Positions 7,541 through 57,011 of a DNA stretch of 64,000 nt are shown in pieces. Source of the stretch: Mesoterricola sediminis (lineage in GTDB: Bacteria; Acidobacteriota; Holophagae; Holophagales; Holophagaceae). Each line of letters opens with the position of its first letter. Positions within the stretch are counted from its first letter, which is position 1. Both the position numbers and the translations under genes were made by a program. The notes below the pieces were generated by a model that was given only the letters and a program-made list of their open reading frames with translations, did no database searches and had not been told where the DNA came from. Where the stretch lies: NCBI RefSeq assembly GCF_030295425.1, contig NZ_AP027081.1, forward strand, positions 1,178,001 to 1,242,000. Reading direction: 5' to 3'.

Positions 7541-7568
7541 CGCGCGACAGGGGCTGTCCTGGCGCGCG
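7541..7568 (-). terminator. Hairpin after the MutS-like gene
   Basis: Two 11-bp arms with one mismatch (CGCGCGACAGG and CCTGGCGCGCG) enclose a 6-nt loop, 38 bp past the stop codon of the MutS-like gene. The stem is strong but no U-tract follows in the direction of transcription, so it is a terminator candidate only. The rest of the gap at 7378-7605 shows no gene. Confidence 0.35.
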
Positions 7569-7605
7569 GGGGATTCCACCTGGAATCGGATCCCACGTTT
7601 GGTTT

Positions 7606-13854: not shown

Positions 13855-14150
13855 AGCACCCGCTCCAGCAGGGCCTCCAGGGCCTCGGGAGACACCCCGT
13901 GGACGAGCTCGCCGTCCAGGCGGAGGTTGGGGCCCTGCTGGCACATGCCCTCGCAGCGGCTCCCCTTGAGGGTGACCCGGTCCTCCAGGCCCCGCGCGCG
14001 AAGCCATTCCTGGATGTGGGGCAGATGGTCGTCATTGCCCCGGGTGAAGCAGGAGCTGCCGAGGCAGACGGTGAGGACCGGCTTGGGGGCGGCGGGCGAA
14101 GCTTCCGCCGGACCCGGGCCGGGGCCCGGGTGCGGTTCGTTGGCTGGCAT
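13851..14150 (-). CDS. Thioredoxin-fold [2Fe-2S] ferredoxin
   Basis: A 99-residue protein with a Pro/Ala-rich first 25 residues, then a [2Fe-2S] thioredoxin-like domain whose cysteines follow C-x4-C (CLGSSC) and C-x3-C (CEGMC). It lies between rex and the sensory hydrogenase and is translationally coupled to the latter through a 4-bp overlap. The start has a GAGGAG site five bases upstream. Homologous small proteins occur in the same position in clostridial rex-hydS-hydABC clusters, where their role is presumed electron transfer. It differs clearly in sequence from the second copy at 10699-10950. Confidence 0.87.
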   Translation of the reverse strand: MPANEPHPGPGPGPAEASPAAPKPVLTVCLGSSCFTRGNDDHLPHIQEWLRARGLEDRVTLKGSRCEGMCQQGPNLRLDGELVHGVSPEALEALLERVL

Positions 14151-14179
14151 GGGGACTCCTCAGGGAAGGGGGAGGCGGT

Positions 14180-16399: not shown

Positions 16400-16514
16400 G
16401 GGCACCTCCCGGGCCCAGGGTACACCGGGGGCGGCGAGGCGGCGGTTAGCGACCGACCGACCATGGCCCCCCGGTGCCCCAGTCCGGGCGGGCGCCGGCT
16501 GATACCCTGGAGGC

Positions 16515-38427: not shown

Positions 38428-39837
38428 TCAGGCCGGCTCCGCCGCGGCCCGGCGCTTCTGGAGGATCTCCTTCACCTCGTAGGACCGGGCCTCCGTCAGT
38501 GGGTAACCCAGCAGGATGAGGATGCCGGCGCCGCAGAGGGCCGTGGGCAGGCCGATCTCCCAGAGGCGGAGGCGCCAGAGGGCCGCGGCGCTCTGGGTGG
38601 CCAGGCCCTCCACGAAGCCCGTGCCCTGCAGGAGGTAGCCCCCGGCCACGGAGGCCACGGAGACGCCCGCCTTCCACCACCAGTTGTAGACGGCGAAGTA
38701 GACGCCCTCCTTGCGGACGCCTTCGCGGACCTCCTCCTCGTCGCAGATGTCCGCGATCATGGAGTTCACGAGGGAGAAGCAGAAGACCATGCCCAGGGAG
38801 AGGCCCACCGTGGGGATGTAGGTGAGCCAGGGGCGGGCGGGATCGTAGCAGACGATCTTGAGGAGGTTGGCGGCGGCGATGAGGGCGAAGGAGAGGATCA
38901 CCGTCCCCTTCTTGCCGAGGGCCTTGGAGACCCAGACCATGGGAATCGCGCCGGCGATGCCGACCGCCGCCCACAGCGTCCCGTTCTGGGCCATCAGGGC
39001 GCTGGCGGCGTCCTTGTCGCCGCCGAAGAGGTAGAAGATCGTCGTGAAGTTGCTGAAGCCCATGACGACCTGGAAGCCGACGATGAGGAGGCTGAAGGCC
39101 GCCACGAGGCGCAGGAAGGCGCGGTTGCGGTAGGTGGCCTTGAAGCCCTCCATCACGGGGATGCGGGCCTGCTCGCGGGCCTGGGAGAACTTGCCCTCCT
39201 TGCACACGAAGGCGCACACCAGGGCCGAAATGGTGAGGAAGGCGCTCATGCCCAGGCAGACCCAGCGGATCCCGGCCACCGTGTCGCCCTTGAAGACGGG
39301 CCGGTTGGCCAGGTAGTAGACCCAGGGGAGGCAGAAGGCGCCCACGTTGCCGATGAAGCTGGCGAAGGCGAAGAGGGAGGTCTTCTCGTGGGGATCCTCG
39401 GTCATCTCGAGGCCCAGGGCGCCGTGGGGGATCGCATAGATGGGGACCACGGTGTAGAAGAACACCGAGGCCGCCAGGAAGTAGGCGAACATGGCGCCGT
39501 GGCTCCAGTTCCGGGGGACGGTCCAGAGCAGGAAGAAGGCGATGCCCAGGAGGACGCCCCCGACGACGAGGTAGGGGATCCGGCGCCCGTAGCGCGTCCG
39601 GGTGTTGTCGGAGAGGTTGCCGAGGAAGGGGTCCACGAGGGCGTCCCAGAGGCGGGGAAGGGCCTGCGCGTAGCCGATCCAGACGGCGCTGATGCCCAGG
39701 CCGACCACGTACACCAGGCCCGTTAGCTGGATGACCGAATTCACGGCGACGATGGTGACGATGGACCCCATCCCGTAGGCGAGCTTCTGGCTGATCGGGA
39801 TGCGGTCGATGGCGAGCGGGGGGCGGGATTCGGACAT
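38428..39837 (-). CDS. GPH-family sugar:cation symporter
   Basis: A 469-residue MFS-fold permease of the glycoside-pentoside-hexuronide family, with PRLWDALVDPFLGNLSDNTRTRYGRRIPYL after helix 2 and MIADICDEEEVREGVRKEG in the second half, both diagnostic. Such carriers import disaccharides or oligosaccharides with Na+ or H+. It is divergent from a LacI-type repressor, and a saccharide-degradation run follows beyond it, so it probably imports the oligosaccharides made in the periplasm. The ATG at 39837 begins just before the first segment; the longer frame crosses the lacI operator and was rejected. Confidence 0.9.
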   Translation of the reverse strand: MSESRPPLAIDRIPISQKLAYGMGSIVTIVAVNSVIQLTGLVYVVGLGISAVWIGYAQALPRLWDALVDPFLGNLSDNTRTRYGRRIPYLVVGGVLLGIAFFLLWTVPRNWSHGAMFAYFLAASVFFYTVVPIYAIPHGALGLEMTEDPHEKTSLFAFASFIGNVGAFCLPWVYYLANRPVFKGDTVAGIRWVCLGMSAFLTISALVCAFVCKEGKFSQAREQARIPVMEGFKATYRNRAFLRLVAAFSLLIVGFQVVMGFSNFTTIFYLFGGDKDAASALMAQNGTLWAAVGIAGAIPMVWVSKALGKKGTVILSFALIAAANLLKIVCYDPARPWLTYIPTVGLSLGMVFCFSLVNSMIADICDEEEVREGVRKEGVYFAVYNWWWKAGVSVASVAGGYLLQGTGFVEGLATQSAAALWRLRLWEIGLPTALCGAGILILLGYPLTEARSYEVKEILQKRRAAAEPA

Positions 39838-39963
39838 GGGACCTGCCGGGGGAGGGGATACAAGGGTTTGGTTTGCTTGGATCTTAGGCGCGTAGGTGGA
39901 GGTCTTTGACTTTTTCACTTGCGGGAGGGATGGCATGGGTATATTACTTTTCTGCTCCCACGA

Positions 39964-39977
39964 TGTAAACGTTTTCA
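39964..39977. promoter_or_regulatory. LacI-family operator between GPH symporter and lacI
   Basis: TGTAAACGTTTTCA contains the central AAACGTTT palindrome with the CG core typical of LacI/GalR operators. It lies in the 174-bp gap between the divergent symporter gene and lacI, 34 bp before the lacI start. A nearby A+T-rich TATATTAC (about 39942) may belong to a promoter. Confidence 0.65.
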
Positions 39978-40011
39978 TTTCCCCCCCCGAGTCTTCCGCG
40001 GACGAAATCCC

Positions 40012-41073
40012 ATGAGCGAGCCCAGCCGAGAAGCGCCCGTCCGTAGCGAAACCGCCGACGTCACCATCCACGACGTGGCGCGGGAAGCGCGGGTCTCCAT
40101 CGCCACGGTGTCGCGGGTCCTCAATGGCACCAACCCGGTGAAGGGCGCAACGAGTGAGCGGGTGATGGCCGCCGTGGAGCGCCTGGGCTACATCCCCCAC
40201 AGCGGCGCCCGGAGCCTCATCAAGCGGGAGACCCGGACCCTGGGCGTCCTGCTGCCGGACATGTTCGGCGAGTTCTTCAGCGAGCTGATCCGCGGCCTGG
40301 ACCTGGTGGCCCGCCGCCGGGGCTTCGCCCTCCTCGTGACCTGCACCCACGGCGAGGCCAGCGCCGCCGAAACCATGCTCCGCACCATGCACGGGAAGGT
40401 GGACGGCATGGTGATCCTCAGCTCCGACCTGGACCTCGACGCGGGCCTATGCCGGCTTCTTGGCCGTACGCCAACCGTCTTCCTGAACCAGCCGGACGGG
40501 CCGCAGGCCGCCAGCTACGACGCCATCAGCGTGGACAACCACGGGGGCGCCCTCTCCATGACGCGCTACCTGCTGGGGCTGGGCCACCGCCGCATCGCCT
40601 TCATCGGCGGGCCCGAGCACAACATGGACGCGCGGCAGCGCCTGGAGGGCTGGCGGGAGGCCATGGCCTCCCTGGCCGCCGAGCCCGACCCCGCCCTGGA
40701 GGTGCCGGGCGATTTCAGCGAGGCCTCGGGATACCGGGCCGCGTGCCGCCTGCTCAAACTGCCGACCCGGCCCACGGCCATCTTCGCCGCCAACGACGAC
40801 ATGGCGCTGGGCGCCCTGGCCGCCCTTCGGGACCAGGGGGTCAAGGTGCCCGAGGACATCAGCCTGGCGGGCTTCGACGACGTGCCCATCGTGCGTTACC
40901 TCTCCCCGGCGCTCACGTCGGTGCGGGCGCCCATTCCCGAGCTCGGGGCCCGCGCCGCCGAGCGGTTGCTCAACATCATCGAGGCCGGCGGCGCCAGCCA
41001 GGCCCGCCAGGAGACCCTCGACGTCGTGCTGGTGACGCGGGCCTCCACCTGTCCCCCCCGCCTGACCCCCTGA
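40012..41073 (+). CDS. LacI family transcriptional regulator
   Basis: A 353-residue repressor. The N-terminal HTH (about residues 17-65) is VTIHDVAREARVSIATVSRVLNG, with the hinge helix GARSLIKRETRTLGVLLPD, followed by a periplasmic-binding-protein-like sugar domain (AIFAANDDMALGALAALRDQGVKVPEDISLAGFDDVPI). It is divergent from the GPH symporter and upstream of the TonB receptor and glycosidase genes, so it probably represses the locus until a sugar from it binds. The start is fixed by context, since the HTH begins soon after; no strong ribosome-binding site is visible. Confidence 0.93.
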   Translation: MSEPSREAPVRSETADVTIHDVAREARVSIATVSRVLNGTNPVKGATSERVMAAVERLGYIPHSGARSLIKRETRTLGVLLPDMFGEFFSELIRGLDLVARRRGFALLVTCTHGEASAAETMLRTMHGKVDGMVILSSDLDLDAGLCRLLGRTPTVFLNQPDGPQAASYDAISVDNHGGALSMTRYLLGLGHRRIAFIGGPEHNMDARQRLEGWREAMASLAAEPDPALEVPGDFSEASGYRAACRLLKLPTRPTAIFAANDDMALGALAALRDQGVKVPEDISLAGFDDVPIVRYLSPALTSVRAPIPELGARAAERLLNIIEAGGASQARQETLDVVLVTRASTCPPRLTP

Positions 41074-41154
41074 TTCCGCATCCATTCCGGGACGGGATGG
41101 CCCGTTCCGCCGTTTCTTCACCCTTCCCTTCCCAAACCTTCCATGGAGCCACCC

Positions 41155-44010
41155 ATGTCCAACCTCCTCCGAACCCGGTCCGGTTCGATCCCGGCCCTGG
41201 CCGTCCTGCTCGCCGCCGCGGCGATGCCGGCCGTCCTCCAGGCCCAGACCACCAACGCGGTCCTGCGCGGCCGCGTGCGCGCCAAGGATGGCCGCGCCAT
41301 CCCCGGCGCCGTCGTCATGGCCGTGAACAAGGCCAACGGCTACAGCACCAGCACCGTGGTTCGCCCCGACGGCACCTACTTCCTCAGCCTCGACCCCGCC
41401 ACCTACAACCTGACCGTCACCGCCCAGGGTCAGGCCCGGGCCGCCAAGACCATCCGCGTGCAGGTGGGCCAGGCCCTCGACCTGGACTTCAACCTGGCCC
41501 CCATGGCCGAGGCCTCCGCCACCGTGGAGGTGACCGGGACCCTCAGCGAGATCCGCACCGCCGAGGTGGCCACCAACATCACCACGGAGCAGCTGGAATC
41601 CCTGCCCCAGGGCAACCGCAACTTCCTCAACTACGCCGCCCTGGCGCCTGGCATCAAGATCAGCAATGACGAGATGAACCAGTCCTTCTCCTCGGGTGGC
41701 CAGACCAACCAGCGCACCAACATCTTCATCGACGGCGCCAGCTACAAGAGCGACCTCCTCTCCGGCGGCTCCGTCGGCCAGGACAGCAGCCGCGGCAACC
41801 CGTTCCCCCTCACCGCCGTGCAGGAGTTCCGCGTCCTGACCGAGAACTACAAGGCCGAGTACCAGAAGGCCTCCGGCGCCGTCATCACCGCGGTGACCAA
41901 GTCCGGCACCAACGAGTTCCACGGCGACATGTTCACCTACTACCAGAACAAGAACCTGGTGGCGAACAACTGGTTCGCGGCCCACCGCGGCCAGCCCAAC
42001 CCCGAGTACTCCCGCACCCAGTACGGCCTCAGCGTCGGCGGCCCCATCCTCAAGGACCGGATGCACTTCTTCCTGTCCTACGAGGGCCAGAACCAGAACC
42101 GCGACAACCTGGTCTACCTGGGCGGCACCAGCATGGCCGGGGCCTCCCAGGCCCTGAAGGACAAGCTGAACAGCTACGCCGGCAGCTACCCCTCGCCGTT
42201 CCGCAGCGACCTGGTCTTCGGCAAGGTCGACTACCAGATCAACCCCCAGCAGATCCTCGAGTGGACCATCAACTGGCGCAACGAGCACGAGAAGCGCGAC
42301 TTCGGCGCGCAGACCTCGTACGAGCGCGGAACGGACATGGCGAACAACGTGCTGACCAGCACCCTGAAGCACAAGTTCACCACGGCGTCCTGGGTCAACG
42401 AGGCCATGGTCAGCTTCCAGCGCGCCGAGTGGAACCCCAAGCCCCTGCACTCCGACCTCGTCGGCAAGGACTACCAGGGCATCATCGTCATCGGCGGCAA
42501 CGAGACCACGCAGGACTTCGTCCAGAAGCGCACCTCCCTGCGCGACGACTTCACCTACCTGGGCGTCTCCGGGCACACCATCAAGACCGGCCTGACCCTC
42601 GACTTCCTGGACTACAAGGTCCAGAAGTGGCAGGTGGGCAACCCCGTCTACCGGTTCAACACCTCGTACGACCCGACCCTCACCATCCCCTTCCAGGCCC
42701 AGTACGGCGTCGGCAACCCCGACATGAGCGCCGACAACAAGCAGTTCGGCATCTACGTGCAGGACGACTGGAACGTCACCCCGCGCCTGCAGGTGAACCT
42801 GGGCGTCCGCTGGGACTACGAGTCCCACATGTTCAACGAGGACTACGTCACGCCCGCGAACGTGGTGTCCACCCTCAGCTCCCTGTACCCGTCCAACTAC
42901 TTCAGCGACGGCAGCCAGCGCAAGCCCTACTACGGCGCCTTCCAGCCCCGCATCGGCTTCACCTATGACGTCAAGGGCAACAACACCCTGGTCGTCTTCG
43001 GCGGCGTCGGCCGCTACTACGACCGCGAGTCCTTCAACAACGTCCTGGACGAGCGCTTCCGCCTGCAGTGGGGCGTCCGCACCTTCACGTTCAGCGCCGA
43101 CGGGTCCCCCGTCAACGGCACGCCCGCCATCAAGTGGGATCCCAGCTACCTGACCAAGGCCGGCCTGGACACCCTGATCGCCAAGGGCGTGGCGCCCAAT
43201 CCCGAAGTCTTCCTCCTCGACAACAACGCCAAGCCGGCCTACTCCGACCAGGTCAGCCTGGGCGCCCGCGGCGTGCTGGGGGCCTGGAACTGGTCCGTGA
43301 CCCTGACCGACGTCGAGAGCAAGAACTCCCTCACCTGGAAGTGGGGCAACCGCGACGCCAACCTCAACTACATCTCCGTCCCCGGCTTCTCCAACGTGCT
43401 CCTCAGCGACACCAAGAAGACCTGGTACCAGGCGATGTACGTGACCTTCGAGAAGCCCTACAGCGAGGCTTCCGGCTGGGGCTTCGGGGTCCGCTACACC
43501 CTGTCGAGCGCCAAGCAGACCGGCAACGACCTGTTCAGCCTCGACTACGTGAACGCCGACGCCTACGGCAAGCACCCCACCGCCGACGACGAGCGCAACC
43601 GCCTCATCTTCGACGGCATCGTGAAGCTGCCCTGGGGCTTCAAGCTGAGCGGCCTCATCACCCTCAGCACCGGCCTGCCCTACACCATCTGGGACGTGAC
43701 CAACGGCTGGGACTACAGCAAGCGCCACTTCCAGTACAACGCGGGCCGGCCCATCAAGTACAGCTTCATCATCCCCAACGCCTGGGGCTACCGCTCCGTC
43801 GACCTGAAGCTCCAGAAGGACTTCAAGATCGGCAAGGCCAAGCTGGGCGTCAACGCCGAGTGCATCAACGTGTTCAACTACAACAACTGGATCTACGGCT
43901 GGGATTCGGGCTACATCGACGGGTCCGACGGCGCCAAGGCGCGGTTCGGCCAGCCCGTGGACGTCCTGCGCGGCCGCCGCGTCCAGTTCGGCGCGACCCT
44001 CCAGTTCTGA
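41155..44010 (+). CDS. TonB-dependent receptor with N-terminal carboxypeptidase-like domain
   Basis: A 951-residue outer-membrane protein of the acidobacterial OAR-like type. After a signal peptide ending near AVLQAQ, a carboxypeptidase-regulatory-like domain (VLRGRVRAKDGRAIPGAVVMAVN, residues about 40-115) precedes the plug (QLESLPQGNRNFLNYAALAPGI; TNQRTNIFIDGASY) and a 22-strand barrel ending in Phe (VQFGATLQF). Such receptors import large saccharides or chelates using TonB energy. It lies 81 bp after lacI and directly before a PF10091 lipoprotein gene, so an oligo- or polysaccharide ligand is likely. No SusD gene is present. The second of two ATGs (41155) has GGAG at proper spacing. Confidence 0.9.
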   Translation: MSNLLRTRSGSIPALAVLLAAAAMPAVLQAQTTNAVLRGRVRAKDGRAIPGAVVMAVNKANGYSTSTVVRPDGTYFLSLDPATYNLTVTAQGQARAAKTIRVQVGQALDLDFNLAPMAEASATVEVTGTLSEIRTAEVATNITTEQLESLPQGNRNFLNYAALAPGIKISNDEMNQSFSSGGQTNQRTNIFIDGASYKSDLLSGGSVGQDSSRGNPFPLTAVQEFRVLTENYKAEYQKASGAVITAVTKSGTNEFHGDMFTYYQNKNLVANNWFAAHRGQPNPEYSRTQYGLSVGGPILKDRMHFFLSYEGQNQNRDNLVYLGGTSMAGASQALKDKLNSYAGSYPSPFRSDLVFGKVDYQINPQQILEWTINWRNEHEKRDFGAQTSYERGTDMANNVLTSTLKHKFTTASWVNEAMVSFQRAEWNPKPLHSDLVGKDYQGIIVIGGNETTQDFVQKRTSLRDDFTYLGVSGHTIKTGLTLDFLDYKVQKWQVGNPVYRFNTSYDPTLTIPFQAQYGVGNPDMSADNKQFGIYVQDDWNVTPRLQVNLGVRWDYESHMFNEDYVTPANVVSTLSSLYPSNYFSDGSQRKPYYGAFQPRIGFTYDVKGNNTLVVFGGVGRYYDRESFNNVLDERFRLQWGVRTFTFSADGSPVNGTPAIKWDPSYLTKAGLDTLIAKGVAPNPEVFLLDNNAKPAYSDQVSLGARGVLGAWNWSVTLTDVESKNSLTWKWGNRDANLNYISVPGFSNVLLSDTKKTWYQAMYVTFEKPYSEASGWGFGVRYTLSSAKQTGNDLFSLDYVNADAYGKHPTADDERNRLIFDGIVKLPWGFKLSGLITLSTGLPYTIWDVTNGWDYSKRHFQYNAGRPIKYSFIIPNAWGYRSVDLKLQKDFKIGKAKLGVNAECINVFNYNNWIYGWDSGYIDGSDGAKARFGQPVDVLRGRRVQFGATLQF

Positions 44011-44027: not shown

Positions 44028-45542
44028 ATGGGAATGCCTGAATCGAACCTGAACGGCGCCGCCGGGAACCGCAGGAAGGAGGGCCGCCGGCCCTCCCCCC
44101 TGCGGGGCCTGCTCGGTGGCTGCGTCCTGCCGGCCCTGCTCCTGTTCTCCACCGGCTGCCAGGCCGCAACCCCCGCACCCTCCGCCCCCGTCCTGACCGA
44201 TCAGGCGTTCCTGGATCTCCTGGAAAGGCGCACCTTCCAGTTTTTCTGGGACACGGCGGATCCCACGACCGGCCTCGTGCCGGACCGCTACCCCACCCCC
44301 TCCTTCGCCAGCATTTCCGCCGTGGGCTTCGGCCTCACGGCCTACGTGATCGGCGCGGAGCGGGGCTATGTGACCCGCGACCAGGCGGCGCAGCGCGTGC
44401 TCCTCACGCTGCGCTTCCTGGACAAGGCCCCCCAGGGTGACGCCGCCACCGGCATCGCCGGGTACAAGGGCTTCTACTACCACTTCCTCGACATGAAGAC
44501 CGGGCTCCGCTACCAGAAGGTGGAGCTCAGCAGCATCGACACCGCCCTCCTCCTGGCCGGCGCCCTCACCTGCCGGGCCTACTTCGACCAGCCCTCCGCG
44601 GCCGAGACGGAGATCCGCGACATCGCGGTCCGCCTCAACGCCCGCGCCGACTGGGCCTGGTTCTCGGCCCGGCCCAACCTGGTGAGCATGGGCTGGACGC
44701 CGGAAGAGGGCTTCAACACCTACGACTGGCACGGCTACATGGAAGGCATGCTCCTGGTGCTGCTGGCCATGGGCTCCCCGGCCCACCCCGTCAGCCCCGC
44801 CGCGTGGCCCGCCTACACCGCGACCCAGAAATGGGGCACCTTCGAGGGCCAGTCGTTCTTCCAGTTCGGGCCCCTCTTCGGGCACCAGTTCAGCCACATC
44901 TGGGTGGATTTCCGGGGCATCCGCGACGCGGCCTCCGCCGCCCGGGACCTCGACTACGCCGAGAACACCCGGCGCGCCACCTACGCCCAGCGGGCCTATG
45001 CCCTGCGCAACCCTGGCGGATGGAAGGGCTACGGCGCCAACGGCTGGGGCATCTCCGCCTGCGACGGACCCGTGGACGGCACCCTCACGGTGGACGGGAC
45101 GAAGCGCACCTTCCTCACCTACGCCGCCCGGGGCGCCGGCGGGGAAGGGATCCTGGACGACGGGACCCTGACGCCCAACGCCGCGGCCGGATCCATGCCC
45201 TTCACGCCGGAGATCTCCCTCCCCGCGCTGCAGGCCATGCGGACCACGTACGGCGACGCGCTCTTCTCCACCTACGGGTTCCTCGACGCCTACAACCCCA
45301 CCTTCCCGGTCGGCCAGAAGACCTACCACGGCCGCACCGTGTCCGGCCTGGGCTGGTTCGACACGGACTACCTGGGCATCGACCAGGGCCTGATCCTGAC
45401 CATGATCGAGAACCACCGGTCCGGGCTCGTGTGGAACCTGATGAAGCGGGATCCCACCCTCCTCCGGGGCCTCGCCCTGGCGGGCTTCAAGGGCGGTTGG
45501 GTGGACGCGGCCCCCGCGGCCCTGAAGCGTCCGGTCCGCTAG
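44028..45542 (+). CDS. PF10091 'glycoamylase' lipoprotein, probable GH144 endo-beta-1,2-glucanase
   Basis: A 504-residue lipoprotein. A 43-residue N-terminal signal region ends in the lipobox LFSTGC (Cys 44). The rest is one (alpha/alpha)6 domain of the Glycoamylase type, from LLERRTFQFFWDTADPTTGLVPDRYP to MIENHRSGLVWNLMK. This domain is shared by GH144 endo-beta-1,2-glucanases and by the middle part of cyclic beta-1,2-glucan synthases. With a GH94 phosphorylase, GH1 enzyme and TonB receptor around it, beta-1,2-glucan cleavage at the cell envelope is the best guess; other beta-glucans remain possible. It follows the receptor by 17 bp and precedes the next gene by 8 bp. Confidence 0.82.
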   Translation: MGMPESNLNGAAGNRRKEGRRPSPLRGLLGGCVLPALLLFSTGCQAATPAPSAPVLTDQAFLDLLERRTFQFFWDTADPTTGLVPDRYPTPSFASISAVGFGLTAYVIGAERGYVTRDQAAQRVLLTLRFLDKAPQGDAATGIAGYKGFYYHFLDMKTGLRYQKVELSSIDTALLLAGALTCRAYFDQPSAAETEIRDIAVRLNARADWAWFSARPNLVSMGWTPEEGFNTYDWHGYMEGMLLVLLAMGSPAHPVSPAAWPAYTATQKWGTFEGQSFFQFGPLFGHQFSHIWVDFRGIRDAASAARDLDYAENTRRATYAQRAYALRNPGGWKGYGANGWGISACDGPVDGTLTVDGTKRTFLTYAARGAGGEGILDDGTLTPNAAAGSMPFTPEISLPALQAMRTTYGDALFSTYGFLDAYNPTFPVGQKTYHGRTVSGLGWFDTDYLGIDQGLILTMIENHRSGLVWNLMKRDPTLLRGLALAGFKGGWVDAAPAALKRPVR

Positions 45543-45550
45543 GAGGCAGC

Positions 45551-48500
45551 ATGGCCCCTTTCCCGCGCACGCCTTCCCGGTTGGCCCTTGGCCTGGCTTG
45601 CGCCGCCCTCCTGGGCGAAGCACCTCCCAGGGTCCTGGACGCCTTCCCGGATATCCGGGCCTGGACCGCGGCGCCCTCGGACGGGGTCTCCCTCCGCCTG
45701 GGGCACGCCCGGGGCCCCGGGGGCCAGGGCGCCCTGCGCCTGGACTTCGATTTCAACGGGCGGGCCGGGTACGCGGCCGCCCGCAGGACCCTGCCGGTGA
45801 AGCTCCCGGCCAACTACGAGCTGTCCTTCTGGATCCGCGGCGAAGGCCTGCCCAACGCCCTGGAGTTCAAGCTGGTGGATCCCTCCGGCGACAACGTCTG
45901 GTGGGTCCGCAAGCCGGACTTCACGCTGCCGGGGGGCTGGACCCGGATCGTCCTCAAGAAGCGCCATGTGAGCTTCGCCTGGGGGCCCGGGGGGGCGGAC
46001 CCCTCGGTCATCGGCGCCCTGGAGTGGTGCGTCACCGCCGGGCAGGGCGGGAAGGGCTTCGCGGAGTTCAGCGGCCTCACCCTCCGGGAACTGCCCCCCG
46101 AGCATCCCTACGCCGGCACACCGGTGGCGTCGGCCTCGGCTTCGCAGCCTGGGTTCGGGCCCTCGGGACCGCCGGCCAAGGCCTGGCGGGCTCCCCGGGA
46201 GGGGGGCTGGTTCCAGCAGGCCTTCGGCGAATCCCGCGTCTTCGGCGGCGTGCGCGTGGACTGGGACGGCGAGGCGCCCTTGGACTTCGACCTCCAGGCC
46301 TCGGACGACGGCCGGAGGTGGACCACCCTCAAGGAGGTGCGCGGCGCTGGGGGCGCCGCCAGCCTCCTTCAGACGCCGGAGACCGAGGCGCGCTTCCTGC
46401 GCGTGGTCTGCCGGCGGACCCGGGGCGGGGGACCCTGGGGCGTGCGGGCCCTGACCGCGCAGCCCCTGGCCTTCGGGGCGTCCGCGAACGCCCTCTTCGA
46501 GGCGGCCGCCAAGGCCGCCCCCCGGGGCGACTATCCCCGCGGCTTCCTGGGCGAGCAGGGCTACTGGACCCTCGTGGGCGTGGACGGGGGCGTCGACAGC
46601 GCCCTGCTGTCCGAGGACGGCGCCGTGGAGCCCGGCCGGGCCCGGCCGGCCCTGGAACCCTTCCTCTGGGACGGGACCCGGCTCCTGGGCTGGGCCCAGG
46701 CCGACAGCACCCAGACCCTGGAGGGGGAGGGCCTGCCCATCCCCACCGTCACGCGCCGCATGGGCGACCTGGTCCTGCGCGTCACCGCCTACGGGGCCGG
46801 ACGCCCCGGGGCCCCCGTGGTGCGCTGCCGCTACCGCGTCTCCCGGGAGGGGGGCCGGCCCTGGAAGGGCGCCCTCTTCCTGGCCCTGCGGCCCTTCCAG
46901 GTGAACCCCCCGGCCCAGTTCCTGGGCACCTCCGGGGGCGTCGCCCCCGTGCGGCGCCTGACCTTCGACGCCCGGGGCGTCCAGCTCGACGGCCGCCGCT
47001 ACCTGACCACCCTGACGCCGCCCAGCGGGGCCGGGGCCAAGCCCTTCGCCGCGGGCCCCCTCCTGGAGGACCTGGGGCGGGGCCGCCTCCCCGCCGCAGC
47101 CTCGGTGGAGGACCCGGACGGCTGGGCTTCCGGGGCCCTGCGGTACGACCTGGACCTGGGGCCCGGCGAGACCCGGGACCTGTACGTGGATCTGCCCCTG
47201 GCCGGGGATCCCGGTCCGCTGCCGGCCTTCGAGGACGGCCTGCGGGCCGAGGCCGAGGCCTGGGCGGAGCGCCTGGGGCGCGTGGGCCTGGACCTGCCCG
47301 AGCCCGGCGCCTCCGCCACCCTCCGCACCTGCCTGGCCCACATCCTCATCAGCCGCCAGGGCCCGGCCCTGCGGCCCGGAACCCGCGCCTACGCCCGCTC
47401 CTGGATCCGGGACGGGGCCATGATGGGGGCCGCCCTCCTGCGCCTGGGCCATGCCCAGGCCGCCAAGGACTACCTGGCCTGGTACGCCCCGAACCTCTTC
47501 GAGGACGGCAAGGTGCCCTGTGTGGTGGACGGCCGCGGGTCCGACCCGGTGCCCGAGAACGACAGCCACGGGGAATTCATCCACCTCCTGGCCGAGATCG
47601 GCCGCTTCACGGGCGACCGGACCTTTGTGGCCGCCTGGTGGCCCCAGGCCCGGGCCGCTGCCGCCTGGATGGCCCGGCATCGCGAGCCCTCGGACGGGCA
47701 CCAGGGCGAGCCCTGGCGGGGCCTCATGCCCCGCAGCATCAGCCATGAGGGCTATTCCGCCAAGCCCATGCACAGCTTCTGGGACGATTTCTGGGCCCTG
47801 CGCGGCCTGAAGGACGCGGCCTGGATCGCCGGCTTCCTGGGCGAGCAGGCCGAGGCGGCGCGCTGGGCGGGGGAGGCCGCCGACTTCCGGGCGTCCGTCC
47901 TGCGGGCCCTGGACGGGTCCCGGGCCCGGCACGGCATCCCCTACCTGCCCGGGTGCGTGGAACTGGGCGACTTCGACGCCACGTCCACCACCATCGCGCT
48001 CCTGCCGGGCGGGGAACAGGCTCACCTGCCCGCCGAGGCCCTCCTGGCCACCTTCGAGCGCTTCCACGCCGAAGTGTCCGGCCGGCGCCGGGGCGAGGGG
48101 GACGGCCGCTACACCCCCTATGAATTGCGGGCCATCGGTGCCTATGCCTTCCTGGGCTGGGGCGACCGGGCGGCGGAACTCCTGGAGGGCTACCTGGCGG
48201 ACCGGAGGCCCCTGGCCTGGAACCAGTGGCCCGAGGTGATCGTGCGGAACCCCCGGGAATCCACCTTCCTGGGCGACCTGCCCCACGCCTGGGTGGGCTC
48301 GGACTACCTGCGCTCCCTCCTGGCCCTGCTGGTGGTGGACCGGGAATCGGACGGCGCCTGGGTCCTGGGCGGCGGCCTGCCGGCGTCCTGGGTCTCCCGT
48401 CCGGGCGGCGTCGGCATCCGGAACCTGCGGATGCCCGGGGGCGCCCTGACCTACCAGGTCCGCGCGGAGGGGGGCCGGGTGGTCTGGGAACTCGGCGGCG

Positions 48501-48649
48501 GCGTGGAGCCGCCCCAGGGGGGGCTGGTCCTGCGCTGGCCCCTGCCCGGGGGCTTCCGGCGCGCCACGGTGGACGGCCAACCTGTCGAGGTTGCCGGCAA
48601 GGAAATGATCATCAGGCGGCTCCCCGCCCGGGTGGTCATGGAACCATGA
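45551..48649 (+). CDS. Secreted 1032-residue protein with an alpha/alpha-barrel-like domain, unassigned
   Basis: An N-terminal signal peptide (SRLALGLACAALLGEAPP) is followed by a beta-rich carbohydrate-binding-like part (about 30-185), a discoidin/F5-8C-like part (about 200-310: GGVRVDWDGEAPLDFDLQASDDGRRW), a second beta-sandwich (about 330-550), and a helical domain (about 570-940) with features of six-hairpin glycosidases such as YARSWIRDGAMMGAALLRLG, VPENDSHGEFIHLLAEIGRF and FWDDFWALRGLKDA. I cannot assign a glycoside-hydrolase family. Acidic residues in WIRDGA and ENDSHGE are candidate catalytic groups. It lies between the GH144-like and GH94 genes with an AGGAGG site overlapping the upstream stop, so it is in the operon and probably acts on the same glucan outside the cytoplasm. 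Confidence 0.75.
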   Translation: MAPFPRTPSRLALGLACAALLGEAPPRVLDAFPDIRAWTAAPSDGVSLRLGHARGPGGQGALRLDFDFNGRAGYAAARRTLPVKLPANYELSFWIRGEGLPNALEFKLVDPSGDNVWWVRKPDFTLPGGWTRIVLKKRHVSFAWGPGGADPSVIGALEWCVTAGQGGKGFAEFSGLTLRELPPEHPYAGTPVASASASQPGFGPSGPPAKAWRAPREGGWFQQAFGESRVFGGVRVDWDGEAPLDFDLQASDDGRRWTTLKEVRGAGGAASLLQTPETEARFLRVVCRRTRGGGPWGVRALTAQPLAFGASANALFEAAAKAAPRGDYPRGFLGEQGYWTLVGVDGGVDSALLSEDGAVEPGRARPALEPFLWDGTRLLGWAQADSTQTLEGEGLPIPTVTRRMGDLVLRVTAYGAGRPGAPVVRCRYRVSREGGRPWKGALFLALRPFQVNPPAQFLGTSGGVAPVRRLTFDARGVQLDGRRYLTTLTPPSGAGAKPFAAGPLLEDLGRGRLPAAASVEDPDGWASGALRYDLDLGPGETRDLYVDLPLAGDPGPLPAFEDGLRAEAEAWAERLGRVGLDLPEPGASATLRTCLAHILISRQGPALRPGTRAYARSWIRDGAMMGAALLRLGHAQAAKDYLAWYAPNLFEDGKVPCVVDGRGSDPVPENDSHGEFIHLLAEIGRFTGDRTFVAAWWPQARAAAAWMARHREPSDGHQGEPWRGLMPRSISHEGYSAKPMHSFWDDFWALRGLKDAAWIAGFLGEQAEAARWAGEAADFRASVLRALDGSRARHGIPYLPGCVELGDFDATSTTIALLPGGEQAHLPAEALLATFERFHAEVSGRRRGEGDGRYTPYELRAIGAYAFLGWGDRAAELLEGYLADRRPLAWNQWPEVIVRNPRESTFLGDLPHAWVGSDYLRSLLALLVVDRESDGAWVLGGGLPASWVSRPGGVGIRNLRMPGGALTYQVRAEGGRVVWELGGGVEPPQGGLVLRWPLPGGFRRATVDGQPVEVAGKEMIIRRLPARVVMEP

Positions 48650-48692: not shown

Positions 48693-51600
48693 ATGACTCA
48701 CTCCAAGGACAACGCCGGACGCCCGGCCGCGACGCCCGTCCCGGGCGAACGGCGCGGCCACATCCTGAGCGATGGGCGCTACCGGGTCCTGATCACCGAC
48801 CGGGGCACCGGCACCTCCGCCTGCGGCGACCTGGCCCTGACCCGGTGGGCCGGGGACCGGCTCACCGATGCCGACGGCTTCTTCCTGATCCTGCGGGAAC
48901 CCGCCGTGGGGACCAGTTGGTCCGCCGGCCTTCGGCCCGCCTTGCGCCAGCCGGACACGTATGCCGCGCACTTCACGGACGGCCGCGCGACCTTCGTCCG
49001 GGAGGACGCGGGCCTCGTCACCACCCTGGAGGTGGCCGTCGTCCCCGGCCGGGATGCGGAACTCCGCCGCCTGACCCTCGAGAACCGGTCCGGCGCCGCC
49101 CGGACCGTGGACCTCACCTCCTGCCTGGAGGCGGTGCTGAACCACCGGGAGGCGGACCGGGCCCACCCGGGCTTCTCCAAGCTGTTCGTGGAAACCTTCT
49201 GGCGGCCGGAGGCCCGGGCCCTCCTGGCCCGGCGGCGCCCCCGGGGCGCGGACGAGGCGCCCCAATGGATGGTCCACTGGATCGCCGCGGGCGCCGAGGG
49301 CGAAGTCTCCCACGCCTCCGAACGGGCCGCCTTCCTGGGGCGGGGCCGCACCCTCGCCGAGGCGGCGGCCCTGGCGGCCCCAGGCCCCCTCACCGGCGGC
49401 ACCGGCGCGGTGCTGGATCCGGTCCTCGCCCTCCGCACGGCCCTGACCCTGGCCCCCGGGGCGCGCCGCACCGTCACCGTGGGCCTCGCCGCCGCGCTGG
49501 ATGAGGCCGGCGCCCTGGCCACCTGCGCGGCCCTGGCCGGCGCCGAGGCCGTGGACGCGGCCTTCGAAGCCGCCGAACGCCAGGCCCGGGCGGACCGGGA
49601 GGCCTGCGGGCTCGACGCCCCGGCGGCCCTGGAAGCCGCCCGCCTCGCCGTGGACCTGGCCTACGGGGCGCCCCTGCCGGCGGCGCCCCAGGATCCCGCC
49701 CAGCCCCTGCCGGCCTTGCCCGGCCTGGGTGGCGCGCCCCGGCTCGTCGTCGACCTGGATGGGGCCGAGGGCCCCGCCCGGGGCGAGGCCGCCCTGGCCG
49801 CCCTGGCCCTCTGGCACCGCCAGGGGCTGGACGCGCGGGTGGCCCTCGTGGGCCCCGCGGCCCAGGCCGGCCTCTGGGCGCCGAAACTGGCCGCCCTCCC
49901 CGATCCCGGCCGTGCCGCCTATCTGGCTGTGGAATCCCTGGGCGCCGCCGGGCTGCGCGCCGTTCACCGCCATGCCCGGGCCGTCGTGCCCGGAACCCGA
50001 CCCCCCGTCGCCGCGTCCGAGCGGGTCTACGCGCCCTTGCGTCCGGCCGGGCCCCAGGTCCCGCCGCCGGCGGAGACCGTCCTGGACAACGGCCTTGGCG
50101 GCTTCTCCCCCGATGGGCGGGAGTACCGCCTGCGCATCCTGCCGGGTCCGGACGGGCTGCCCGTCCTGCCCCCCATGCCCTGGTCCAACGTGCTGGCCAA
50201 CGAGACCTTCGGCCTCATCGCCACCGAACGGGGCCTCACCTGCACCTGGAACCTGAACAGCCGCCTGCGCCGGCTCACGCCCTGGCTGAACGATCCCATC
50301 GGCGATCCGCTGCCCGAGGCCCTCTTCATCCGGGATGAGGCGGAGCGCACCGTGTGGTCCCCCATGCCGGGCCCCGCCGGCCGGCACCTGGCCTTCACGG
50401 TCCGCCACGGCTTCGGCGCCACCGTGTGGGAAAGCCAGGTGGAGGACCTGGCCCAGACCGTCACCGTCTTCGTGGACCCCCAGGCGCCCGTGCGCTACCT
50501 GACCGTCCGCCTTGAGAACCGGGGCGGCCGCACGCGCCGGCTGGGCCTCGTGTGGGGCGCCGAACTGGTACTGGCCGAGAGCCCGGAGCGCAGCAAGGGC
50601 CTCCTGGACGTGCGCCGGGAAGGGGCCGAACTCTACGCCTGGCACACGGCCCCCGGGCCCTTCCACGGCCAGGTGGCCTTCGCCACCGCCCTGGGCGGCA
50701 CGGTGCGGGCCTCGGGAGACCGGGCCGCCTACCTGGGGCCCGACGGGGATCCCGCGGCCCCGGCCGCGGCCTTCTCCGCCGCGGGCCTGGTGCCGGGCGC
50801 CGATGTGCCCGCCGAGCCCGGCTTCGCCCTCCAGTCCGCCCTCACCCTGGCCCCGGGGCAGACGGCCACCTGCGTCTTCGTCTTCGGCGAGGCCCCGGAC
50901 CTGCGGGAGGCCCGCCGCCTGGCGGCCACCGCCCCCCGGGCCGAGGCGGTCCTGGCCGAGGTCCGCGCCTTCTGGGAAGACACCCTCTCCGGCCTGCGGA
51001 TCACCACCCCCGAACCGGCCCTGGATGTGATGGTGAACGGGTGGCTGGCCTACCAGAACCTGGCCTGCCGCATGTGGGGCCGCACGGCCTACTACCAGTC
51101 CGGCGGCGCCTTCGGCTACCGCGACCAGCTCCAGGATTCCGCCGGCCTCCTCTTCCTGCGGCCGGACCTCACCCGGCGCCAGCTCCTGCTCCATGCGGCC
51201 CACCAGTTCGTGGAGGGCGACGTCCTCCACTGGTGGCACCCCCCCGTGGAGGAGGGCATCCGGACCCGTTTCTCCGACGACCTGCTGTGGCTGCCCCTCC
51301 TCACCGCCACCTACCTCCGGAGCACCGGCGACTGGGCGGTGCTGGACGAAGTCGCCCCCTACCTCACGGCGCCCGCCCTGGCCCCCGGCCAGGACGAGGC
51401 CTACCTGGCGCCCGTCGATTCGGGCCAGCGCGGGGACCTCTACGACCACTGCTGCCGGGCCCTCGACCTCGCCCTCAGCCGCGAGGGCGTCCACGGCCTG
51501 CCGCTCATGGGCACGGGCGACTGGAACGACGGCATGAACCGGGTCGGCCGGGAAGGGCGGGGGGAGAGTGTCTGGATGGCCTTCTTCCTCTACGCCATCC

Positions 51601-52505
51601 TCGAGGCCTTCGAGCCCCTCTGCCTGCGCCGGGGGGACGAGGCCCGGGTCCTCCGCCACCGGGCGCGCCGGGAGGCGCTCACCGAGGCCCTGGAGGCGTC
51701 GGCCTGGGACGGCGGCTGGTACCGCCGGGCCTACTTCGACGACGGCACCCCCCTGGGCGGGGCCGCCAACACCGAGTGCCGCATCGACTGCCTGGCCCAG
51801 GCCTGGGCGACCCTCTCCGGGGCCGTGCCCCCCGCCCGCGCGGAGCAGGCCCTGGCCGCCATGGAGGAACAGCTGGTGGACGAGCAGGCTCACCTCATCC
51901 GCCTCCTCACCCCGGCCTTCGATCGCTGCCCCCACGACCCCGGCTACATCAAGGGCTACCTGCCCGGAGTCCGGGAGAACGGTGGCCAGTACACCCACGG
52001 GGCCCTCTGGGCCGTCAAGGCCATCGCCGCTTCCGGCCGCAGGGACCGGGCCGCCCAACTCCTCACCATGATGAGTCCGGTCAGCCACACGGCCACGCCC
52101 GAGCGGGTCGCCGTCTACCAGACCGAACCCTACGTGGTGGCCGCCGACGTCTACGGTGTGGCGCCCCACACCGGGCGCGGCGGGTGGACCTGGTACACCG
52201 GCTCGGCCGGGTGGTTCTACCGGGTGGCCGTGGAGGACGTGCTGGGCTTCACCCTGGAGGGGGGCCTGGGCGCCCGCCTCGATCCTCGTCTGCCGGAGCG
52301 TTGGCCCTCGGCGTCCATCCGCTACCGCGATCCCCGCTCGGGGAGCGTTCTGGACATCCAGGTGACCCGGGAGGCCGCGATGCCGACGGGCGTGCTGGAG
52401 GCCTGGATCGACGGCGCGCCCCTGACGCCCACGGGCGGCGCGTTCTTCCTCCCCTTCGGTCCCGCTGGCGCCGTCCGGACCGTCCGCGTCCGCGTGGGGG
52501 CCTGA
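48693..52505 (+). CDS. GH94 phosphorylase resembling the C-terminal part of cyclic beta-1,2-glucan synthase
   Basis: A 1270-residue cytoplasmic protein without signal peptide. Two beta-sandwich regions (about 25-330 and 450-750) precede an (alpha/alpha)6 barrel with the GH94 signatures [36 protein letters not shown] and [14 protein letters not shown]. The Asp of GDWNDG (residue 943) is the expected general acid; [21 protein letters not shown] and [13 protein letters not shown] follow. The sequence is like the stand-alone C-terminal portion of NdvB/ChvB, without the GT84 domain, and similar in size to 1,2-beta-oligoglucan phosphorylases. It would release glucose-1-phosphate from imported sophoro-oligosaccharides. 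It lies 43 bp after the 1032-residue gene and 2 bp before the GH1 gene. Confidence 0.85.
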   Translation: [1270 protein letters not shown]

Positions 52506-52507
52506 CC

Positions 52508-53854
52508 ATGGGCGAGCCGCGCTTCCCTGAAGGCTTCCTCTGGGGGGCCTCCACGTCCGCCTACCAGATCGAGGGCTCGCCCCTCGCCGACGGGGCCGGA
52601 CCCAGCAACTGGCATCGGTTCACCCAGCCCGGCGGCAAGGGCGCCCATCTGGCTCCCGGCGGCGCGGTGGCCTGCGACCACTACCGCCGCTGGCGCGAGG
52701 ACCTGGCCCTCATCCGGTCCCTGGGCTTCACCTCGTACCGGTTCAGCGTGAGCTGGAGCCGGGTGATGCCCGAGGGCCGGGGCCGGGTGAACCCGGCGGG
52801 CCTGGACTTCTACCGGCGCCTCGTGGACGGCCTCCTCGAGGCCGGCATCCGCCCGATGACCACGCTCTTCCACTGGGACCTCCCCGCGGCCCTCGAGGAC
52901 CAGGGCGGCTGGGTGAACCGGGACACCGCGGGCTGGTTCGCCGACTACGCCCACACCGTCGTCCAGGCCCTGCCCGGCGTCGCCCTGTGGTCCACCCTCA
53001 ACGAGCCCTGGGTGGTCACGGACGCGGGCTACCTGCACGGGGACCATCCCCCGGGGCACCGGAACCCCGCCGAGATGCCGCACGTGGCCCACAACCTCCT
53101 GCGCGCCCACGGCATGGGCGCCCAGGCCTGCCGCGCCGCGGGCGCCCGCGACGTGGGCATCGTCATCAACATCGAGCCCAAGCACCCCTTCTCCTACCGC
53201 CCCGAGGACGTGGCGGCGGCGCGGCGCGCCGACGCCTACATGAACCGCGCCTTCCTGGACCCCCTCGTCCTGGGCCGGGACCCGGAGGAGATGCCAGAGA
53301 TCTACGGCGCCGCGTGGCCGACGTTCCCCGCCGCCGACTACGATCTCATCCGCCAGCCCCTGGACCACCTGGGCCTCAACTACTACAGCCGCAGCCTCAA
53401 CGTCCACGATCCCGAGGCCCCCTTCGGCCAGTGGCGGGCCGTGCCTCACCCCACCCACCCGAGGACGGAGATGGACTGGGAGGTCTACCCCGAGGGCCTC
53501 ACCGAGACCCTGCTCTGGCTCCGGCGGCGCTACGGGGCGATCCCCCTCTACGTGAACGAGAACGGGGCGGCCTTCGCCGACCCGGACACCGCGCCCCCCG
53601 AAGGCGTGCGGGACCCGCTGCGGGTGGACTACTTCCGCACCCACCTCCTCGCCGTGGCCGAGGCCATGGCCCAGGGCGCCGACGTCCGGGGCTACAGCGC
53701 CTGGAGCCTCCTGGACAACTTCGAGTGGGCCTTCGGGTTCTCCAAGCGGTTCGGCATCGTCCACGTGGACTACGCCACCCAGAATCGGACCCCCAAGGCG
53801 AGCGCCCGCTTCCTGGCCGAGGTGATCGCGACGCGGGGGGCGTGCCTGGCGTAG
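52508..53854 (+). CDS. GH1 beta-glucosidase
   Basis: A 448-residue (beta/alpha)8 enzyme of normal GH1 length. It starts FPEGFLWGASTSAYQIEGSP; the acid/base Glu is in STLNEPWV (residue 165) and the nucleophile Glu in YVNENGAA (residue 351); the C-terminal GYSAWSLLDNFEWAFGFSKRFGIVHVDY binds sugar. It is cytoplasmic (no signal peptide), starts 2 bp after the GH94 stop codon and ends the operon, so it would hydrolyse the short beta-glucosides left by the phosphorylase to glucose. GH1 enzymes are often broad, and activity on sophorose is inferred from context. Confidence 0.94.
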   Translation: MGEPRFPEGFLWGASTSAYQIEGSPLADGAGPSNWHRFTQPGGKGAHLAPGGAVACDHYRRWREDLALIRSLGFTSYRFSVSWSRVMPEGRGRVNPAGLDFYRRLVDGLLEAGIRPMTTLFHWDLPAALEDQGGWVNRDTAGWFADYAHTVVQALPGVALWSTLNEPWVVTDAGYLHGDHPPGHRNPAEMPHVAHNLLRAHGMGAQACRAAGARDVGIVINIEPKHPFSYRPEDVAAARRADAYMNRAFLDPLVLGRDPEEMPEIYGAAWPTFPAADYDLIRQPLDHLGLNYYSRSLNVHDPEAPFGQWRAVPHPTHPRTEMDWEVYPEGLTETLLWLRRRYGAIPLYVNENGAAFADPDTAPPEGVRDPLRVDYFRTHLLAVAEAMAQGADVRGYSAWSLLDNFEWAFGFSKRFGIVHVDYATQNRTPKASARFLAEVIATRGACLA

Positions 53855-56072: not shown

Positions 56073-57011
56073 ATGCACATCGCGAATCCCATCTACGACG
56101 TGGTGTTCAAATACCTCCTCGACGACGAGAAGGTGGCCCGGATCCTGCTCTCCGCCCTCCTGGGCAAGGAGGTGCTCGATCTCCAGTTCCGCCCCACCGA
56201 GGTGCATCAGGAGGCCTCCGGCTCCGGGGGCGCCCAGCTCCTGGTCCTGCGCATGGACTTCGCGGCCATGGTGCGGCTGGAGGATGGAAGCCGCAAGCTG
56301 GTCCTGATCGAGATCCAGAAGGCGCGCAGCGCCTGGGATGTGCAGCGGTTCCGGCGCTACCTGGGCACCAACTACGCCAGTCCGGAGAACGTCCACCTGG
56401 ATGCCGACGGCAGGACGCACCCGCTGCCCCTCGTTACCATCTACTTCCTGGGCGAGGGCCTGGAGCGCGTCGACGTGCCGGTCCTCAAGGTCAACCGCCA
56501 CTACCTGGACGTGGCCACGGGCGACGAGGTGCGGGTCACGGACCCCTTCGTCGAGGCGCTCACCCACGACGCCATCGTGGTCCAGATCAACCGCCTCAAG
56601 AACCGCCGGCGCACCGAACTGGAGCGCCTCCTGGAGGTGTTCGACCAGGGGCTGGCGTCCCGGACGGATCCACACCTGCTGGACATCCTGGAGGAGCATT
56701 TCCCGGAGCGCTACCGCGAGGTGCTCCGTCGCCTCCTGCGCGCGAGCGCTGAAAAGGAGGTGCGGGACCGGATGGACGTGGAGGACGACATGCTGGCCGT
56801 CTTCCGGGACCAGGCCCGCGAGTCGTCGGACCTGCGCCAGACCCTCGCCGAGAAGGACCAGGCCCTGGTGGAGAAGGACCAGGCCCTGGTAGAGAAGGAC
56901 CAGGCCCTGGTGGAGAAGGACCAGGCCTTGGCGGAGAAGGATCGCCTGATCGCGCACCTGCGGCAACGCCTGTCGGCCCCGCCTTCCGACGCGCAGGGGG
57001 GAGGCCCGTGA
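56073..57011 (+). CDS. Rpn-family PD-(D/E)XK nuclease-like protein
   Basis: A 312-residue protein. The N-terminal two thirds match the Rpn/'PD-(D/E)XK nuclease family transposase' group: NPIYDVVFKYLLDDEKVARILLSALLG, then the nuclease core with MDFAAMV (Asp) and VLIEIQKAR (E-x-Q in place of E-x-K), and FRRYLGTNYA. The last quarter is a heptad-like coiled coil, LAEKDQALVEKDQALVEKD, encoded by four near-identical 21-bp units. Rpn proteins in E. coli raise recombination and cleave DNA; short C-terminal products and repeat-number changes are known to affect them. It stands alone between dctA and an M28 peptidase. Confidence 0.85.
   Translation: MHIANPIYDVVFKYLLDDEKVARILLSALLGKEVLDLQFRPTEVHQEASGSGGAQLLVLRMDFAAMVRLEDGSRKLVLIEIQKARSAWDVQRFRRYLGTNYASPENVHLDADGRTHPLPLVTIYFLGEGLERVDVPVLKVNRHYLDVATGDEVRVTDPFVEALTHDAIVVQINRLKNRRRTELERLLEVFDQGLASRTDPHLLDILEEHFPERYREVLRRLLRASAEKEVRDRMDVEDDMLAVFRDQARESSDLRQTLAEKDQALVEKDQALVEKDQALVEKDQALAEKDRLIAHLRQRLSAPPSDAQGGGP
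56850..56933 (+). repeat. Four tandem 21-bp units in the Rpn-type gene
   Basis: Units start at 56850, 56871, 56892 and 56913, each encoding EKDQAL plus Val or Ala; a fifth partial unit follows at 56934. Units 1 and 3 are identical, and the others differ by one to three bases. The period is a multiple of three and seven residues, so changes in copy number lengthen or shorten a coiled coil without frameshift. Confidence 0.9.

Follow-up and report, generated by a model that had tools for sequence, protein, structure and literature searches.

A predicted secreted GH15-like glycosidase in a putative beta-1,2-glucan operon of Mesoterricola sediminis

What might a large secreted protein do in an operon whose other enzymes already handle beta-1,2 bonds? 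The question is raised by a gene (positions 45551-48649, + strand) in a 64,000-nucleotide stretch of Mesoterricola sediminis DNA (the window; positions 1,178,001 to 1,242,000 of the forward strand of contig NZ_AP027081.1, assembly GCF_030295425.1), which encodes a 1032-residue protein (the study protein). A first-pass annotation had read this protein as secreted, as belonging to no placeable glycoside hydrolase (GH) family, and as possibly acting on the same polymer as its neighbours. Our analysis reveals that its nearest relatives are GH15 glucosidases (clan GH-L) by fold, by profile-profile score, and by active-site residues. We predict, with about even confidence, a secreted glycosidase of an uncharacterised GH15-related family that removes an alpha-linked glucose or junction from the glucan.

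Predicted structure and remote relationship to GH15

An AlphaFold2 model of the study protein was built from 48 sequences (the window and related loci; 33 of 81 sequences had been removed at 80% identity before folding), with model residue numbers equal to protein residue numbers minus 24. The model has a mean pLDDT of 92.3 and a pTM of 0.91 and comprises five domains, all on the + strand: a CBM11-like beta-sandwich module (approximately residues 25-188; 45623..46114; 6r3m, 6r31, and 1v0a at Z 17.8-17.9), a CBM32-like (F5/8 type C, discoidin) module (approximately residues 189-305; 46115..46465; 4zy9 and 4zz5 at Z 16.6-16.7), a beta-supersandwich domain (approximately residues 312-550; 46484..47200; defined by model secondary structure and spanned by the alignments to 9ju0, 1lf6, and 1ug9), an (alpha/alpha)6 barrel region (47228..48340; supported by the model and by the fold and hhalign matches to GH15 given below), and a C-terminal beta domain (residues 931-1032; 48341..48646; model secondary structure). 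The N-terminal part, modelled alone from the window and 39 of the 47 loci of the first model, has a pLDDT of 93.9. Pfam PF00754 (F5_F8_type_C) exceeds its cut-off at residues 209-300 (33.4 bits versus 28.2), while residues 25-188 have no Pfam match, CBM11 included, though the fold is alike (6r3m, Z 17.9). The two kinds of carbohydrate-binding-like beta domain (the second best matched by 4zy9, Z 16.7) and the six-hairpin-like helical domain of the first-pass annotation are thus borne out by the model.

Comparison of the model with known structures points to GH15. Foldseek returns the GH15 dextran dextrinase (DDase) of Gluconobacter oxydans (9ju0) as the top match in the PDB (E 2.2e-17), after which come GH94 entries, an exo-arabinanase, glucodextranase, GH116, GH95, rhamnosidases, GH63, and GH65. 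VIA-align also ranks 9ju0 first (Z 31.8, 3.8 Å, 554 residues, 15% identity), followed by GH15 isomaltose glucohydrolase (5z3c-e, Z 29.3), glucoamylase 1lf6 and GH65 7fe3 (both Z 29.1), glucodextranase 1ug9 (Z 28.7), and rhamnosidases and GH116 (Z 27-28.6). Fold likeness by itself is no proof of function. The first-pass claim that the protein fits no GH family stands in part: no curated Pfam or NCBIfam family reaches its cut-off across the catalytic part, but the fold searches and the profile comparisons below make the protein placeable, remotely, with GH15 of clan GH-L.

Direct searches with the study protein see mainly its binding modules. Pfam returns F5/8 type C models only, phmmer against the PDB returns discoidin-type modules only, and the NCBIfam oligosaccharide amylase model is far below threshold (14.6 bits versus a cut-off of 820.7). 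The Pfam GH15 model PF00723 (cut-off 22 bits) has no match in the study protein and is passed by none of 10 further members (best, 17.6 bits). Because this cut-off is not reached, the study protein is not filed as GH15; the sequence comparisons place it in an uncharacterised family remotely related to GH15, and it is predicted to act in the manner of a GH15 enzyme.

Profiles reach further. A profile of 24 catalytic domains searched against the PDB ranks 9ju0 at the top (E 4.2e-4), ahead of further GH15 and related entries. Comparison by hhalign of the same number of members (including two distant relatives, L012 and L013; such handles denote loci) with family sets built for this analysis gives Prob 96.2, E 2e-9, and score 74.8 for GH15, as compared to E 1.1e-3 for GH78 (3 of 14 sequences, all fragments, having been dropped), 0.05 for GH65 (a set of 3 sequences only), 0.14 for GH94, and 0.056 for GH144. 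Column-shuffled controls reach at most 28.8 and 24.7 (40 shuffles each), versus real scores of 74.8 and 37.4. In a tree of 52 rows (FAR_L018, L028, and L030 excluded), one branch (96/98) separates the 22 clade members from the remaining rows, and another (100/99) does the same for the 11 GH15 rows; the apparent join of the study clade to GH15 is unsure, since long branches meet there.

GH94, GH144, and GH78 were considered as homologues and set aside. The GH94 and GH144/SGL-clan scores are noise (the latter over 32 columns), and the study protein has no match to PF17167 (385.5 bits in its GH94 neighbour) or PF10091. For GH78, 19 of the 24 members match Bac_rhamnosid6H at E up to 1, but the hhalign alignment covers other helices only and stops short of the GH78 motif QRDER[LM]GW. 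The RDER of this motif is present in 10 of 11 GH78 sequences and missing from the study clade, which carries WIRDG[AS]. A relation to GH65 is possible: the GH65 alpha-1,2-glucosidase FjGH65A (7fe3) shares the clan GH-L barrel and has acid and base Glu residues, and the profile-profile score to GH65, at noise level, comes from a set of just 3 sequences. The cut-off of PF17389 (Bac_rhamnosid6H) is passed by 2 of 10 members and that of GDE_C (debranching) by 1 of 10 (L035:11681-12781, L066:11732-12832, and L056:11666-12763 being the members concerned), so automatic naming of this family in databases will conflict.

Predicted active site and mechanism

Conservation was counted over 81 clade sequences. 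Y614, W618, R620, D621, G622, E669, D671, E733, E858, E895, D909, and H912 are each invariant (81/81). The motifs WIRDGA and ENDSHGE, singled out in the first-pass annotation as conserved acidic motifs, are accordingly conserved (W618, R620, D621, and G622 in the first; E669 and D671 in the second), but they match the substrate-binding regions S1 and S2 of GH15, and the predicted catalytic pair, E733 and E895, lies outside both.

The S1-like motif, Y614-x3-W618-I-R620-D621 (47390..47413), would form the -1 subsite, with contacts to glucose O4 and O6 and with a Tyr that positions the base. In a HMMER alignment, Y614/W618/R620/D621 correspond to TtGA Y337/W341/R343/D344 and to DDase Y535/W540/R542/D543. 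The Tyr is reported to hydrogen-bond the base (PMC8626586, PMC12446779; numbering was set by the residues that these name), and the Arg and Asp of DDase are reported to hold O4, and the Asp also O6, of the -1 glucose (PMC12446779). The S2-like motif, E669-N-D671 (47555..47563), lies in PENDSHG, which aligns with DDase PENDSQG. E669 was considered as the acid and rejected: DDase PENDSQG, 65 residues before the DDase acid, is not its acid, which lies in SIWED.

In GH15, the acid lies in the alpha5-alpha6 loop and the base in the alpha11-alpha12 loop (PMC12446779). E733 (SISHE733GY; 47747..47749) and E895 (W-[AGP]-E895-V; 48233..48235) fall in these two loops of the model and by this rule are the predicted general acid and general base, respectively. 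E733 is also kept in L012 and L013 and in homologues from Methylosinus and Methylocystis, and hhalign pairs E895 with a conserved Glu of the GH15 set. A further invariant residue, E858 (in YTPYE; 48122..48124), is a candidate specificity residue on the +1 side; it is kept in the Croceibacterium homologue and is replaced by Val or Ala in Methylosinus and Methylocystis and by Gly in L012 and L013.

Inverting GH15 enzymes are reported to have Gln after the base, and the retaining DDase cluster to have a Gly-Glu dyad (PMC12446779). Gly precedes E895, at position 894, in just 9 of the 81 clade sequences; the window protein has Pro and most have Ala. Since the dyad is so infrequent and the inverting Gln is found in none, inversion is likely, not certain. 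The same residue bears on whether the study protein could be a retaining transglucosidase that remodels the glucan in place of degrading it, as the rank of DDase at the top of both fold and sequence matches would suggest; the scarcity of the dyad argues against this and makes it improbable. DDase resembles the study protein in its N-terminal beta modules, supersandwich, (alpha/alpha)6 barrel, WxRD and PENDSxG motifs, and acid and base loops, but differs in sequence (~15% identity over 554 residues), in being retaining with a Gly-Glu-Ser nucleophile motif as compared to [AGP]-Glu-[VI] in the study clade, in making alpha-1,6 dextran from alpha-1,4 glucans, and in not being known from a beta-1,2-glucan operon. 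Isomaltose glucohydrolase (5z3a-f) and glucodextranase (1ug9), both alpha-1,6 exo-enzymes, share the barrel, the -1 motif, and the acid and base positions, but have 15-17% identity and their own Pro-Glu-Gln base motif.

Operon context and candidate substrates

Translation confirms the open reading frame (1032 residues, one stop). AGGAGG stands ahead of the ATG, the stop codon of the upstream GH144 gene lies 8 bp before the start, and the G+C content at codon positions 1, 2, and 3 (0.755, 0.570, and 0.941) is a coding pattern; the gene is single-copy in the 4.52-Mb genome. Residues 1-24 (45551..45622), charged and then hydrophobic, constitute a predicted Sec signal peptide with a guessed cleavage site and with no lipobox seen in the N-terminal sequence, in line with the first-pass call of secretion. 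The hydropathy rule behind this prediction (used in place of SignalP) gives a Sec-like N-terminus in 64 of the 81 clade sequences, with start codons of homologues chosen by us. From these features we infer the secretion route.

The gene order on the + strand is: LacI-family regulator (40012..41073), TonB-dependent receptor-like outer-membrane protein (41143..44010; homologue annotated as TonB-dependent receptor in L158), GH144-type endo-beta-1,2-glucanase (44028..45542; a predicted lipoprotein with lipobox-like STGC), study gene, GH94 phosphorylase with no apparent signal peptide (48693..52505; PF17167), and a gene (52508..53854) whose product we take, by sequence recognition alone, to be GH1 beta-glucosidase-like. 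The first-pass placement of the gene between an endoglucanase and a phosphorylase is thus correct. Divergent from the operon is a gene (38428..39978, - strand) for what is presumably, on the same kind of recognition, an MFS/GPH-type sugar transporter. Further downstream, an open reading frame with tandem repeats of about LVEKDQA at its end (56073-57011, + strand) has a product recognised by eye, which we assume to be Rpn/PD-(D/E)XK nuclease-type.

Three components identify the polymer. The GH144-type protein has as its best PDB match 8xul (XcSGL, locus tag XCC2207; 505 bits), reported to hydrolyse beta-1,2-glucans and described in complex with Sop7 (PMC12102758). For the GH94 product, the closest PDB entries are cyclic beta-1,2-glucan synthases, matched over their GH94 phosphorylase portion. 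The sugar-binding protein of the Xanthomonas euvesicatoria locus (L056) matches 3uor of X. citri (1000 bits), then Lin1841 (228.7), with the next match at 124.6; Lin1841 is described as a binder of Sop3-5 (sophorooligosaccharides; PMC12369401). An XcSGL-like GH144, a GH94 like that of the synthases, and a Lin1841-like sugar-binding protein together make this, as judged from its genes, a beta-1,2-glucan operon, which makes the first-pass view likely that the study protein would act on the same polymer. XcSGL itself, a close homologue of the operon partner, has no detectable sequence relation to the study protein (hhalign E 0.056).

Locus comparisons used the best 80 of at least 574 relatives. 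Seventy loci hold at least 4.5 kb of upstream DNA, and all of these but L044 (69 of 70) carry GH144 upstream in the same orientation; the neighbouring GH144 homologues are 50-73% identical across all loci that carry one. For nine loci with no GH144 on the contig, a strong GH144-type gene is present elsewhere in seven of the genomes, and in the other two the only GH144-type match is in a frame of cyclic-glucan-synthase size. Homologues of the window LacI, TonB receptor, and GH1 genes occur in 60, 61, and 24 of the 80 loci, respectively. Flank probes were counted in 59 loci whose 10-kb flanks are complete on either side: the sugar-binding protein and permease probes match in all 59, the glk probe in 27, and the GH3, GH94, and GH1 probes in 4, 3, and 14, respectively. 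In Xanthomonas sacchari, the annotated locus runs LacI, TonB receptor, 'glucoamylase family protein' (GH144), sugar-binding protein, two permeases, the position of the study gene, and edd-pgl-glk-zwf. The study-gene copy there (L158, NZ_CP010410.1, 10001-12895) matches in three pieces with no listed gene and looks broken, while the remaining operon genes are listed.

The study protein is very probably a GH15-like glycosidase of beta-1,2-glucan use; that it is alpha-specific is about evenly balanced. Alpha activity would be the most likely activity because the partners already handle beta-1,2 bonds and characterised GH15 enzymes act on alpha-glucosides; an exo-beta-1,2 enzyme would be in competition with the importer and with the phosphorylase in the cytosol, and an alpha-glucosidase would remove what those cannot. 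Alpha-1,6-cyclised beta-1,2-glucans, with one alpha-1,6 bond each, are reported in Xanthomonas, Ralstonia, and Cereibacter, with GH186 as their maker, and are the leading, if tentative, candidate for the target. A dedicated enzyme for this alpha bond was not found in a limited search of the open-licence literature. The study protein might, and we put this forward only tentatively, be the founding member of a new clan GH-L family that resolves the alpha-1,6 junction of these glucans, the missing alpha-step.

In the proposed mechanism, the two N-terminal modules would hold the study protein on the glucan, and the secreted GH144 endo-beta-1,2-glucanase would cut the chain. The (alpha/alpha)6 barrel would take one glucose in a closed -1 pocket (Y614, W618, R620, and D621) and would act by direct inversion, E733 serving as the acid and E895 as the base, to remove an alpha-linked glucose or junction that the partners are unable to cut. 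The resulting pieces would be imported and then finished inside by GH94 and GH1.

Several results weigh against this reading. By VIA-align, GH65, GH78, and GH116 folds lie just a few Z units below GH15. In hhalign without L012 and L013 (22 members), GH15 reaches only Prob 35.5 and E 3.9e-4, with GH78 close at 1.3e-3. E733 is one residue off the DDase acid E671 in the HMMER alignment (SIWED versus SISHEG), and hhalign does not pair it with the GH15 acid. E895 is followed by Val in 79 of the 81 sequences and by Ile in the other 2, never by Gln, which occurs only in the distant L012 and L013. An internal alpha junction would require an open O2 side at the -1 glucose. MdoG/GH186 was not found in the M. 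sediminis genome and is present in just 21 of 39 host genomes (the 39 checked among the genomes of the 80 loci); a tie to the host's own cyclised glucan was not borne out, and the GH186/MdoG distribution speaks neither for nor against the alpha-1,6 idea. Finally, 40 of the 59 fully flanked loci have no GH94, GH1, or GH3 probe match within 10 kb, and the study protein could there be the sole exo-enzyme of its cluster, which would favour beta-1,2 activity.

This last point bears on the main rival, possible though doubtful in our judgement, in which the GH15-like barrel has been re-purposed as an exo-beta-1,2-glucosidase or sophorohydrolase that cuts the beta-1,2 bonds of GH144 oligosaccharides and so yields glucose or sophorose, either in the periplasm or beyond it. 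The strict GH144 association, the frequent glk homologues, the edd-pgl-glk-zwf genes directly after the study-gene position in X. sacchari, and the presence of beta-acting GH94 and GH116 among related (alpha/alpha)6 folds all fit it. The closest sequence relative, by contrast, is GH15, whose known members are alpha-acting, and an exo-enzyme outside would destroy the oligosaccharides meant for the Lin1841-like importer and the cytosolic GH94. We know of no beta-acting enzyme built on a GH15-type active site. The same objection applies to a beta-1,6-glucosidase that would debranch osmoregulated periplasmic glucans. Branched glucans of this kind are widespread in nature, those of E. coli having a beta-1,2 backbone with beta-1,6 side glucoses, and an exo-type -1 pocket and the operon context would suit this activity, which is nevertheless quite improbable.

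Relatives and biological significance

The family extends well beyond M. sediminis. A search of 396 genomes from the phylum gives matches at E <= 1e-3 in 31, and in 10 of these the match is strong (E < 1e-80). A PF10091 (GH144-type) gene is present in all 10 strong-match genomes, as compared to 130 of the 396 overall, and lies less than 6 kb away on the same contig for 9 of the 10 strong matches (G254, at ~55 kb, being the exception). A scan of GTDB genome contigs identified at least 574 confirmed relatives among at least 595 pattern matches, far beyond chance. The best 80 span Acidobacteria, Gemmatimonadetes, Rokubacteria, one Polyangiaceae metagenome-assembled genome, Xanthomonas, Stenotrophomonas, Lysobacter, Luteimonas, Pseudoxanthomonas, Dyella, and Steroidobacter; being rich in Xanthomonadaceae, these loci are not independent, and the spread across phyla is the stronger argument.

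More distant homologues are present in Croceibacterium (40.5% identity), Methylosinus (31.2%), and Methylocystis (29.9%), all 'discoidin domain-containing protein' entries. GH144 adjoins the Croceibacterium copy only (TonB receptor, GH144, study-gene homologue, GH3 nearby) and was not found beside the copies of Methylosinus, Methylocystis, L012, or L013. On a plasmid of the methanotroph Methylosinus sp. C49 (L159), a relative with 31% identity and a gene annotated as GH15 are located close to each other (6460-7938 and 11560-14433). The relatives L012:889-3675 and L013:1432-4200 (27% identity) begin with a GH2-type module, and their base motif reads WAEQ; their genomes have no PF10091 match, and no obvious glucan genes adjoin them. 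In the Luteimonas locus L061, a second relative (15500-17992, - strand; 33% identical) lies downstream on the opposite strand.

Diverse distant relatives, mostly 22-33% identical, are present in L014-L031 (e.g., L016:1324-3744 and L019:709-3144). A set of 17 of these (L029 left out) has hhalign E values of 5.5e-13 to GH15 and 3.1e-35 to the study clade, and those in L014, L019, L020, and L025 have no Pfam match at E up to 0.5. The distant set probably represents further uncharacterised GH15-like families; its gene context is uninformative.

The study protein is undescribed in the open-licence literature that we checked by locus tags and by subject (XCC and XAC locus tags there gave XcSGL and unrelated mentions only); an earlier classification, as in CAZy, may exist. 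Linear and cyclic beta-1,2-glucans are reported to matter in symbiosis, pathogenesis, and adaptation, with genes for their degrading enzymes found only since 2014. Behind the NCBI label of the relatives, 'discoidin domain-containing protein', stands a likely enzyme that hundreds of genomes encode, including those of Xanthomonas and Stenotrophomonas. A secreted, widely conserved GH144 partner with a GH15-like site would be a concrete, expressible candidate for the alpha bond of alpha-1,6-cyclised glucans, which reduces the question to one assay; if the enzyme proved beta-1,2-specific, it would be equally new.

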